Part shown: in pieces, positions 5,653 through 6,654 of the stretch | Position numbering within the stretch: position 1 is the stretch's first letter | How the letters are laid out: every line of letters begins with the position of its first letter | Assembly: GCA_030041435.1 (NCBI GenBank) | Contig: JASHNW010000040.1 | Location: forward strand, 62,001-126,000 | Reading direction: 5' to 3' | Source: Acidobacteriaceae bacterium | Lineage (GTDB): Bacteria; Acidobacteriota; Terriglobia; Terriglobales; Acidobacteriaceae | Length of the DNA: 64,000 bases | Position numbers and translations under genes: made by a program | Notes under the pieces: generated by a model | What the model saw: only the letters and a program-made list of their open reading frames with translations | Told to the model about the DNA's origin: nothing | The model's database searches: none

Positions 5653-5728
5653 TGGAGCACCGAGCGGGAATTGAACCCGCGAATACTGGTTTTGCAGACC
5701 AGCGCGTTAGCCACTTCGCCATCGGTGC
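5653..5728 (-). tRNA. tRNA-Cys (anticodon GCA)
   Basis: A full 76-nt cloverleaf reads on the minus strand with an encoded CCA end. It has a 7-bp acceptor stem (GCACCGA with TCGGTGC), a D stem GCG/CGC, an anticodon stem CTGGT/ACCAG with loop CTGCAAA (anticodon GCA), and a T stem GCGGG/CCCGC with loop TTCAATT. The discriminator base is U73, a cysteine identity element. It lies 48 nt downstream of the peroxiredoxin stop codon on the same strand. The gap holds a strong hairpin but no T-run and no clear promoter. Co-transcription with the peroxiredoxin, under the cysteine leader, is therefore likely. Confidence 0.97.
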
Positions 5729-5734
5729 TCTCGG

Positions 5735-5762
5735 TCCGCCATGCGCGGGCGCGCACGGCGGA
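5735..5762 (-). promoter_or_regulatory. Perfect hairpin between peroxiredoxin and tRNA-Cys
   Basis: On the minus strand TCCGCCGTGCGC pairs with GCGCATGGCGGA around a GCCC loop: 12 bp with one G-U pair. No T-run follows, so it is a poor intrinsic terminator. It could be an RNA-processing site that separates the mRNA from the tRNA precursor, or a stabiliser of the peroxiredoxin mRNA end. The structure is seen; the function is inferred. Confidence 0.5.
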
Positions 5763-5776
5763 GTTGCGTTACAGAT

Positions 5777-6433
5777 TTACTTCGGCTGCGCCGCTGTCCG
5801 TATGTACGGATTCACGGTTTTGTAGCCGGGAAAGAGCTTGTCCGCCTCTTCGTTCGAGACTGCGCCCCCGATGATCACATCCTCGCCCTGCTTCCAGTTC
5901 GCCGGCGTGGAGACCTTATGCTTCGCGGTGAGCTGGATCGAATCGAGCACGCGGAGAATCTCGTCGAAGTTCCGGCCGGTGGACATGGGGTAAGAGAGGG
6001 TCAGCTTGATGCGCTTGTCCGGCCCGATGACGAAGACGGTGCGCACGCAGGCGTTCTGCGCGGGGGTGCGGCCTTCAGAGCTATTGCCGGCGTCGCCGGG
6101 CAGCATGTCGTAGAGCTTGGCGACCTTGAGCTCGGGATCGCCGATCATGGGGTAGTTCACCTGGTGCCCAGTGACTTCCTGGATATCCGGCTCCCACTTT
6201 TTGTGGCTGGCCACCGGATCGACGCTCAGCCCGATCACTTTGGCGCCGCGTTTCGCGAATTCCTTCTCGAGGCCCGCCACGGCGCCCAGCTCGGTGGTGC
6301 AAACGGGCGTGAAGTCCTTGGGGTGGGAGAAGAGAACGGCCCAGTTGTCGCCGATCCACTCATGGAAATGGACGGTGCCCTGGGTAGTTTCGGCGGTGAA
6401 GTCGGGAGCAACATCGTTGATGCGGAGTGACAT
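5777..6433 (-). CDS. Peroxiredoxin, 1-Cys (Prx6/AhpC-TSA) type
   Basis: Reduces hydrogen peroxide and organic peroxides with one peroxidatic cysteine in the cytoplasm. It has 218 residues, as in the Prx6 group. The catalytic motif HPKDFTPVCTTELG has Thr42 and peroxidatic Cys45. A second cysteine sits at residue 129 (NACVRTVF). The long C-terminal domain typical of Prx6 is present. The open frame continues 5' to 6526, but the start at 6433 has a good ribosome-binding site (AGGAAAGG) and begins exactly at the family's N-terminus. The extra upstream frame covers the attenuator hairpin. The gene lies downstream of a poly-Cys leader peptide and upstream of tRNA-Cys on the same strand, so expression probably responds to cysteinyl-tRNA supply. 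Confidence 0.93.
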   Translation of the reverse strand: MSLRINDVAPDFTAETTQGTVHFHEWIGDNWAVLFSHPKDFTPVCTTELGAVAGLEKEFAKRGAKVIGLSVDPVASHKKWEPDIQEVTGHQVNYPMIGDPELKVAKLYDMLPGDAGNSSEGRTPAQNACVRTVFVIGPDKRIKLTLSYPMSTGRNFDEILRVLDSIQLTAKHKVSTPANWKQGEDVIIGGAVSNEEADKLFPGYKTVNPYIRTAAQPK

Positions 6434-6484
6434 TTTCGACCTTTCCTGTGGGCGCTCGCCCACCGTAGTATTTCCTGCAAACCG

Positions 6485-6518
6485 AAAAACCCACCCGGCG
6501 TTCGGCAGCGGGTGGGTT
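6485..6518 (-). terminator. Intrinsic terminator acting as attenuator before the peroxiredoxin gene
   Basis: On the minus strand AACCCACCCG (6518-6509) pairs perfectly with CGGGTGGGTT (6497-6488), and the run TTTTT ends at 6485. It lies 31 nt past the stop of the cysteine leader and about 50 nt before the peroxiredoxin start, inside the 5' untranslated region. The T-run is short, so termination may be partial. The position suggests transcription attenuation. Confidence 0.75.
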
Positions 6519-6564
6519 CTGAGCAACTCTCGAATTTCTTCGGCTTCCTCAGGGGCACACCCGC
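6508..6564 (-). promoter_or_regulatory. Predicted antiterminator pairing (leader segment with terminator 5' arm)
   Basis: The segment GCGGGTG (minus strand, 6564-6558) lies inside the last codons of the Cys leader. It is perfectly complementary to CACCCGC (6514-6508), which overlaps the 5' arm of the terminator. The two 7-bp and 10-bp pairings exclude each other. A ribosome stalled on the Cys codons at 6590-6576 leaves the segment free to block the terminator. A ribosome at the stop codon (6551-6549) covers it. The complementarity is seen; the switching is inferred. Confidence 0.6.
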
Positions 6565-6617
6565 ATGTTGCCGCGACAGCAGCAGCAGCACATGCAGGTT
6601 GGAGCGGAAGCGATCAT
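6549..6617 (-). CDS. Poly-cysteine leader peptide (22 aa)
   Basis: A 22-codon open frame whose core reads MCCCCCRGNMRVCP: five consecutive Cys codons (four TGC and one TGT, 6590-6576), plus Cys at positions 8 and 21, so 7 of 22 residues are cysteine. The first in-frame ATG (6617-6615) sits 7 nt after a -10 box, so the mRNA is probably leaderless. A second in-frame ATG at 6593 directly precedes the Cys run. A terminator/antiterminator pair follows, and then a peroxiredoxin gene and tRNA-Cys. Poly-Cys leaderless short ORFs have been described as cysteine-responsive attenuators in mycobacteria; I know of no acidobacterial example. The peptide is probably only a sensor of charged tRNA-Cys. Confidence 0.7.
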   Translation of the reverse strand: MIASAPTCMCCCCCRGNMRVCP

Positions 6618-6624
6618 CGATTTC

Positions 6625-6654
6625 AGCCTAGAGCCTCGCGGCGCAGTGTGTCAA
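6625..6654 (-). promoter_or_regulatory. Promoter of the Cys-leader/peroxiredoxin/tRNA-Cys unit
   Basis: On the minus strand a perfect -35 box TTGACA (6654-6649) is followed after 18 nt by TAGGCT (6630-6625). Transcription should begin near 6618, at or one base before the leader ATG at 6617. No other -35/-10 pair of this quality was seen in the gap. Confidence 0.65.

Follow-up and report, generated by a model that had tools for sequence, protein, structure and literature searches.

A predicted cysteine-codon attenuator preceding a 1-Cys peroxiredoxin gene and a second tRNA-Cys gene in Acidobacteriaceae

The subject of this report is a compact unit on the minus strand of a 64,000-nucleotide (nt) stretch of DNA from an Acidobacteriaceae bacterium (assembly GCA_030041435.1, 5.77 Mb in 134 contigs; contig JASHNW010000040.1, positions 62,001 to 126,000), hereafter the window, in which a short cysteine-rich reading frame and a putative terminator precede the genes for a peroxiredoxin (Prx) and a tRNA-Cys. 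An original prediction, made from the letters of the window, had described this unit as a translation-coupled attenuator, and every part that it listed (promoter, Cys-codon frame, terminator, prx, hairpin and tRNA-Cys) is present where it had been placed. Read in the direction of transcription, a -35 element TTGACA (6649–6654) is followed after an 18-nt spacer by a -10 element TAGGCT (6625–6630), which lies 7 nt 5' of the ATG, at 6617, of a 22-codon open reading frame (ORF) encoding MIASAPTCMCCCCCRGNMRVCP and a stop codon (6549–6617); a leaderless start is predicted. Seven of its codons specify Cys, five of them consecutively (codons 10–14). The segment GCGGGTG (6558–6564), 6 nt 5' of the leader stop codon, is the presumed leader arm of an antiterminator, whose terminator-side arm CACCCGC (6508–6514) was recognised from the alignment and from compensatory changes. 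RNA folding places an inner hairpin within this antiterminator, with a 5' arm CTGAG (6548–6552) that overlaps the leader stop codon and a 3' arm CTCAG (6519–6523); it is present in most alignment rows from the window's genus and variable outside the genus. The terminator, apparent in the sequence and in the alignment, has a 10-base-pair (bp) stem reading AACCCACCCG-loop-CGGGTGGGTTTTT, with the 5' arm AACCCACCCG at 6509–6518 and, at 6485–6497, the 3' arm CGGGTGGGTT (6497–6488) with a T-run (6489–6485). Beyond it lie the prx gene (5777–6433), a G+C-rich hairpin without a T-run that was read from the sequence (5736–5761), and a tRNA-Cys(GCA) gene with encoded CCA (5653–5728), found by tRNA gene calling and by Rfam.

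The product of prx, 218 amino acids long, is a 1-Cys peroxiredoxin of the Prx6 type as judged by its AhpC-TSA and 1-cysPrx_C domains, its PVCTTE motif and its ten solved relatives at E 1e-30 or better, among which are Prx6 and 1-Cys Prx entries; no NCBIfam equivalog matched it at its cut-off. In the Rfam scan of the region the tRNA alone reaches the cut-off, with no match to a T-box or to uORFC-8-2, and a T-box or other known RNA element was rejected on that ground. Matches to Plastid-ycf2 and proV, which are below the cut-off and overlap the tRNA, were set aside as chance or cross-matches. Generic scans do poorly on this locus: the promoter scan misses the window promoter, whose -10 box matches at 3 of 6 positions when the rule requires 4, and the terminator scan does detect the window terminator, but at a rate close to that in shuffled sequence (2 found against 1.8 expected). 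Hairpins similar to the one at 5736–5761, G+C-rich and without a T-run, were seen by eye just 5' of the tRNA in many loci, with varied sequence; the hairpin and its counterparts are possibly a processing signal or an mRNA end.

The Cys-codon leader recurs across the family Acidobacteriaceae, where the relatives found through their Prx include Silvibacterium, Edaphobacter, Granulicella, Terriglobus and Paracidobacterium. A set of 32 family loci was chosen as leader-bearing, leaving out same-contig repeats (L032=L003, L033=L005, L034=L006, L035=L007, L037=L010, L049=L012 and L055=L013); the leader alignment consists of 31 rows, the set minus L003, whose terminator escaped the extraction script, and the pairing test omitted L019 and L021 because both nearly duplicate L018. 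Picked in this way, all 32 loci carry a short ORF starting with ATG or GTG and holding at least three consecutive Cys codons no more than 420 nt upstream of prx, a pattern found in 8 of 1600 dinucleotide shuffles and in 5 of 1279 other sequence windows of the same loci. Runs of at least four Cys codons occur in 28 of the 32, against none of the 1600 shuffles and none of the 1279 other windows. In an unselected sample of 80 Prx loci, the script finds an ORF with at least three consecutive Cys codons in 32 and a second procedure adds L034, making 33, of which 30 belong to the top 32 loci by Prx-search rank (L032–L063, the misses being L053 and L058), and the remaining 48 loci, which include Proteobacteria and a planctomycete, contribute only three (L078, L080 and L086).

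A search of 120 family genomes for Prx at E 1e-60 or better gave 68 places in 66 genomes, and in the best 30 of these places an upstream Cys-rich ORF holds a CC pair in 28 and at least three consecutive Cys codons in 23. No Cys-rich ORF was found upstream of prx at L304 and L305 in that group of 30; at L305 (G104) the covariance model nevertheless detects a leader upstream. Matches to this model, which was trained on the family set and overlooks shorter leaders, lie just upstream of 25 of the 68 Prx places by a count made by eye. Each of 12 genus genomes has a single strong match (E 1.9e-24 or better), always before prx, and among 247 phylum genomes sampled the model matches at 1e-4 in 22, of which 18 belong to the family in the tool's own definition and four, with weaker matches, lie elsewhere. 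The Cys run, whose absence from close relatives was to count against the original prediction, is present in all 12 genomes of the genus and in the majority of the closest loci of the family. Order-level relatives (L015, L018, L020, L022, L023 and L024) also have a Cys-rich leader and a terminator, here preceding a Prx that shares about 40% identity with the window's, and some of these leaders are without a clear pairing segment.

The layout of the start is more variable. In the 12 genus loci TTGACA stands 17–18 nt from TANNNT, which itself lies 7–10 nt before the start codon (GTG in L003). Across the family set, a promoter with ATG or GTG 5–11 nt after the -10 box is seen in 18 of 32 loci, or 19 when the TTG of L039 is counted; a promoter-like pair was read farther upstream of the leader in L038, L043 and L052, and no TTGACA-type promoter was recognised before the leader in the Edaphobacter and Granulicella rows. 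The leaderless arrangement that had been proposed for the window thus extends to its whole genus sample (12/12) but not throughout the family (18/32), and leaderless initiation appears to be the rule near the window rather than a defining feature of the family. At the window's locus the transcript would start at or next to the leader AUG, and the leader would be translated.

A GC-rich stem with a T-run lies between the leader ORF and prx in 31 of the 32 family loci by script, and the remaining locus, L059, has the same terminator arms with a shorter T-run, matched by motif. In the 31-row alignment 91.3% of the terminator cells are paired, and three of the pairs have changes on both sides. The alternative pairing of GCGGGTG with CACCCGC is kept in 85.7% of cells, compared with 35–55% when the segments are slid and 82.3% in shuffles, and nine of its cells are changed on both sides against 3.2 expected, a value reached in 1 of 500 shuffles. 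At the clearest pair, 17 of the 31 sequences have C-G and 6 have U-A; the six U-A sequences may share one ancestral change. Separate compensatory cases, compared by hand-anchored alignment, are found in L004 (GCAGGTG with CACCTGC, the segment being read in another frame), L052 (GCGGGTT with AACCCGC), L038 (TATGCCGG with CCGGCATA) and the Edaphobacter/Granulicella group. L043 keeps GCGGGTG in another reading frame, and L042, L046 and L056 have lost inner terminator pairs and kept the antiterminator. Because the changes are compensatory, the segment persists in other frames (L004, L043) and the antiterminator outlasts inner terminator pairs, selection seems to act on the RNA pairing rather than on the end of the peptide. 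The covariation that had been suggested as a check on the antiterminator is therefore borne out, both in the count of doubly changed cells (9 against 3.2) and in individual loci (L004, L038, L052).

The geometry of translation fits these pairings. If the 3' edge of the ribosome is placed 15 nt beyond the first base of the P-site codon, the pairing segment stays free in all 32 leaders when the ribosome stalls at the first Cys codon of the run, and in all 32 it is covered once the ribosome stands at the stop codon. In the window, stalls at the first and at the last Cys codon of the run both free the segment; one at the lone Cys codon 21 would not. The proposed ribosome positions thus hold for the window and, with a stall at the first Cys codon, for the whole set. 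When the window RNA is folded before the 3' arm of the terminator exists, the antiterminator is obtained, stacked on the CTGAG/CTCAG hairpin, and when it is folded with a ribosome at the stop codon, the terminator is obtained.

Similar leaders precede genes of sulfur assimilation. In the window's genome a Cys-rich leader MVLISKPVSCCACCCALRRTCG stands before a nitrite/sulfite reductase gene (L187), and a weaker one, MRHLPTSATVRECCRATGRTCG, before cysH (L179). Inspection of 12 weak model matches in the genus yielded only two cases of a Cys-rich leader with a terminator before a gene, L154 and L161, which represent a second kind of such leader and precede a nitrite/sulfite reductase. The reductases match NirA and sulfite reductase models below the cut-offs, and their substrate is therefore not settled by sequence. 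A permissive script places a Cys-rich leader just upstream of 20 of 30 family reductase loci (21 were found, and L198 was left out as too far upstream). At 7 of 14 genus loci of the PAPS-reductase family a script recognises a Cys-rich leader, four of these leaders preceding cysH (L179–L182) and three cysD (L176–L178). Of 20 model matches fetched from other genomes, 16 have a Cys-rich leader ORF by script (not L318, L319, L329 and L335), and the downstream gene could be named in 16 (L317, L318, L321 and L326 excepted): six nitrite/sulfite-reductase-like genes, six encoding a second Prx family, two cysK, one cysG-cobA-cysH and one ssuA-like gene; these 20 were chosen as model matches, so the proportions do not describe a whole regulon. 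Since like leaders precede genes for nitrite/sulfite reductase, cysD, cysH, cysK, cysG and an ssuA-like gene, the Prx appears to belong to a cysteine-supply regulon, and the link to cysteine supply suggested at the outset is strengthened by this company. Counts of TGYTGYTGYTGY per genome were too noisy to reveal a regulon: G000 has 82, and the reversed pattern gives 57. At G074:C309 (L339) a Cys-rich short ORF and a terminator precede a gene for a sulfide:quinone-reductase-like protein, whose best NCBIfam match is below the cut-off.

ARAGORN finds a tRNA-Cys after prx in 32 of 33 family loci, at a distance of 22–180 nt; no promoter of 9/12 or better was found in the gap and the last 60 nt of prx in any of the 33, the window's own prx promoter scoring 9 on the same count, and no terminator was found in the gap in 32 of 33. 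Co-transcription of the tRNA-Cys with prx would follow this arrangement. A comparison of the window's seven neighbouring genes with 42 loci found four of them at the window's own locus, the other three being outside its reach, and none at the 41 other loci (38 distinct, with L033, L035 and L037 as repeats; about 0.4–3 kb per side); the comparison covered neighbours of the window only. In G061:C5 (L336) and in G074:C88 and C14 (L337, L338) the leader and the tRNA-Cys enclose a Prx of another family, 36–40% identical, as if the Prx had been swapped within the leader/tRNA unit. Since another Prx family can fill the slot, the unit would be defined by its logic and not by one gene. Sister groups have either a tRNA-Sec or no tRNA at all behind prx. 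A tRNA-Sec call (97–99 nt where read, anticodon UCA) lies 82–177 nt after prx in L060, L069 (=L308), L071 (=L311), L086, L312 and L313, 447 nt after it in L094 and 638 nt after it in L014 (=L078).

The identity of the tRNA bears on what would be sensed. tRNA genes of the window's genome occupy 43 places with 43 distinct sequences, comprising three tRNA-Cys(GCA), four tRNA-Met and one for each of 36 other anticodons. The notion that the prx-linked gene is the genome's only tRNA-Cys was rejected on finding three different tRNA-Cys(GCA) genes. One of the others looks canonical and adjoins tRNA-Gly(GCC) on another contig; the prx-linked tRNA carries U73 and the anticodon GCA, which are named as identity elements of tRNA-Cys in the relevant passage of PMC7609411, and it is a second isodecoder and not the housekeeping copy. 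The third gene (G000:C124:87587-87659, L275) is distinct, yet it resembles the prx-linked copy, and sits between glutamine-synthetase-like and homocysteine-methyltransferase-like genes, both named by eye. No Cys-rich leader was found by script beside this third tRNA-Cys or beside the canonical tRNA-Gly/tRNA-Cys pair. The unit was said to include the very tRNA whose charging would be sensed; it does include a tRNA-Cys(GCA), but one of three, and the prx-linked copy is therefore not the sole tRNA whose charging would be sensed.

What could be the role of such a leader? The leader, the terminator, the covarying alternative pairing, the geometry, the conserved block and the like leaders on sulfur genes are all evident from sequence comparison, and on these comparative grounds the case for attenuation is strong. 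We consider it highly probable that the element is a ribosome-mediated transcription attenuator that senses Cys-tRNA(Cys) and governs a single transcript with the 1-Cys Prx and the second tRNA-Cys. The transcript would begin at or next to the AUG of the Cys-rich ORF, and a ribosome would load at once. With ample Cys-tRNA it would get to the stop codon and cover GCGGGUG, letting the terminator form before prx. With scarce Cys-tRNA it would stall in the Cys run and leave GCGGGUG free to pair with CACCCGC as soon as the latter is made, taking away the 5' arm of the terminator, and the polymerase would then read through prx into the tRNA-Cys gene. The company of sulfur genes suggests that the signal would be cysteine supply, to which the unit would respond; oxidation of cysteine could act through the same signal.

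A number of observations weigh against this interpretation. Among the top-ranked Prx loci, L053 has no leader, and L058 has prx and tRNA-Cys together with a diverged Cys-rich ORF holding one CC pair. Two further covariation measures on the antiterminator are not above shuffles (pairs changed, 88/500; further pair types, 141/500), the pairing energy of a leader with its own terminator beats the swapped mean in only 19 of 32 loci (means -15.3 against -14.6), and many single loci, such as L010, L041, L050 and L062, show a pairing that shuffled tails can equal, which is to be expected when a conserved helix has 5 to 8 pairs. In sister-group set B the leaders have no advantage with their own terminators over swapped ones (3/7), and the genus leaders on reductase, cysD and cysH genes mostly show pairings of 4–6 bp, so that the details of their mechanism may be different. 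With the ribosome stalled at the last Cys codon of the run, no more than 20 of 32 leaders have the segment free. A consensus fold computed from the alignment contains the terminator but lacks the antiterminator; across the Cys run it has a weak helix of four pairs, with no clear protector, and no protector hairpin was seen in the leaders that would close the gene when the leader is untranslated. At equilibrium the full terminator is favoured even with a ribosome stalled at codon 14 (-33.5 against -28.3 kcal/mol), and read-through would therefore depend on the antiterminator forming first, that is, on kinetic trapping. As to the tRNA, a terminator lies within 90 nt after it in only 6 of 33 loci, and L036 keeps the leader and prx together with only the first 16 nt of the tRNA-Cys, 68 nt after prx; the gene seems there to be interrupted or lost.

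Other ways of reading the same parts have to be weighed against transcription attenuation. A stalled ribosome might open the ribosome binding site of prx, the hairpin not being a working terminator; such translational control is how the mycobacterial leaderless poly-Cys ORFs are described in the relevant part of PMC13236596, and a small hairpin at 6463–6448 lies near the prx binding site. We find this improbable, because 31 of 32 family leaders have, by script, a GC-rich stem with a T-run, which covaries, because the alternative pairing is aimed at the terminator arm and not at the prx start, and because the tRNA would escape regulation by such means. Another candidate for the sensor is the Cys-rich peptide itself, which might bind metal or become oxidised while being made, so that translation arrest would regulate prx in response to copper, zinc or peroxide. 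Cys-rich short ORFs do sense copper in Bordetella, and a peroxide sensor would suit a Prx gene, but outside the Cys run the peptide is variable, its pairing segment is read in another frame in L004 and L043, and the presence of like leaders before reductase, cysD, cysH, cysK and ssuA-like genes points to cysteine supply; we give this account the least credence of those considered.

A third alternative leaves the attenuator in place and restricts its output. It could govern prx only, with the tRNA expressed from a promoter of its own within prx, or through constant read-through, and owing its placement to inherited synteny. The promoter scan covered just the gap and the last 60 nt of prx, the two other tRNA-Cys genes can serve translation, and sister groups show that prx may be followed by a tRNA-Sec or by nothing of the kind. 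These points give the idea some weight, but we judge it unlikely overall, given that no promoter of 9/12 or better is present there in 33 of 33 loci, nor a terminator in 32 of 33, and that the prx-tRNA pair persists while the window's other near neighbours are absent, even where the Prx is of another family. A loop through the tRNA is held to be likely, with less certainty than the attenuator itself.

Under the reading that we prefer, attenuation with output through prx into the tRNA gene, the parts would form a closed loop, in which an attenuator that reads tRNA-Cys charging sets the level of a dedicated second tRNA-Cys and of a thiol peroxidase within a Cys-codon regulon of Acidobacteria. 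We regard this fuller scheme as plausible and mildly favoured on balance. Loss of usable cysteine, by starvation or oxidation, would call forth more cysteine synthesis, removal of peroxide and the tRNA itself. The least clear step is the benefit of the extra tRNA-Cys, which would arise if the tRNA and not cysteine limits charging, or on recovery. As far as the literature was searched, no attenuator was known to include in its output a tRNA of the very kind that it reads through charging, and this one would, if true, be the first.

Attenuators of the trp/his type combine a leader ORF rich in regulatory codons with a terminator and a competing antiterminator. The unit described here follows the same scheme and differs from them in that no protector or pause hairpin was recognised and in its leaderless start within the genus. 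In Actinobacteria, leaders with Cys runs were predicted upstream of cys operons, with no terminators in the account given in PMC1262725, and the leaderless polycysteine short ORFs of mycobacteria (Canestrari et al. 2020, as cited in PMC13236596) are described in the latter source as translational. With that system the present one shares a short Cys-run ORF before cysteine-metabolism genes and a design common to several operons, including the leaderless poly-Cys ORF itself (12/12 genus and 18/32 family loci); terminator-free translational control is not matched. Whereas the mycobacterial leaders, as treated in PMC1262725, have no conserved terminator, here an intrinsic terminator and a covarying antiterminator are found, in another phylum and with Prx and tRNA-Cys as targets. 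A closer parallel is the uORFC-8-2 motif before cysS in Rhodobacterales, for which the corresponding entry of PMC8632094 proposes a Cys-codon transcription attenuator: there too Cys codons in a short upstream ORF are followed by a terminator and read as ribosome-mediated attenuation. As that entry presents it, the motif has two tandem Cys codons and is confined to cysS in alphaproteobacteria, whereas the runs here are longer, the targets many, and a peroxidase and a tRNA gene are among them; the window leader, preceding prx and not cysS, falls outside the uORFC-8-2 setting. The PBC-28-3 motif before ahpC-like genes is a long stem next to the start codon, with no Cys ORF in its description in PMC8632094.

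Cys-codon attenuators as such were thus already known; the phylum, the targets and the tRNA loop are unreported as far as we searched. In the literature searched, from which most subscription journals were absent, the element is not reported for Acidobacteria, and no Cys attenuator is described for a peroxiredoxin or a tRNA gene. The original prediction had regarded Cys leaders as known in mycobacteria and this gene combination and phylum as new, which agrees with the literature found; the mycobacterial examples are described as translational. According to the passage of a 2010 survey that deals with Acidobacteria (PMC2965389), almost no predicted attenuator of this phylum had an associated function, and the present one would, if true, add a ribosome-stalling regulon to it. 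The nearest physiological counterpart may be LsfA, a 1-Cys Prx of Pseudomonas aeruginosa that is raised over 45-fold by sulfur starvation; the portion of PMC12581299 concerned with it states that a causal link was lacking from earlier work and offers unincorporated iron as an explanation. LsfA shares with the unit described here the pairing of a 1-Cys Prx with sulfur starvation, for which a cis-acting attenuator would give a direct link. The coupling seen in Pseudomonas would then have in Acidobacteriaceae, if the interpretation is true, a direct cis-acting route from cysteine shortage to an antioxidant enzyme.

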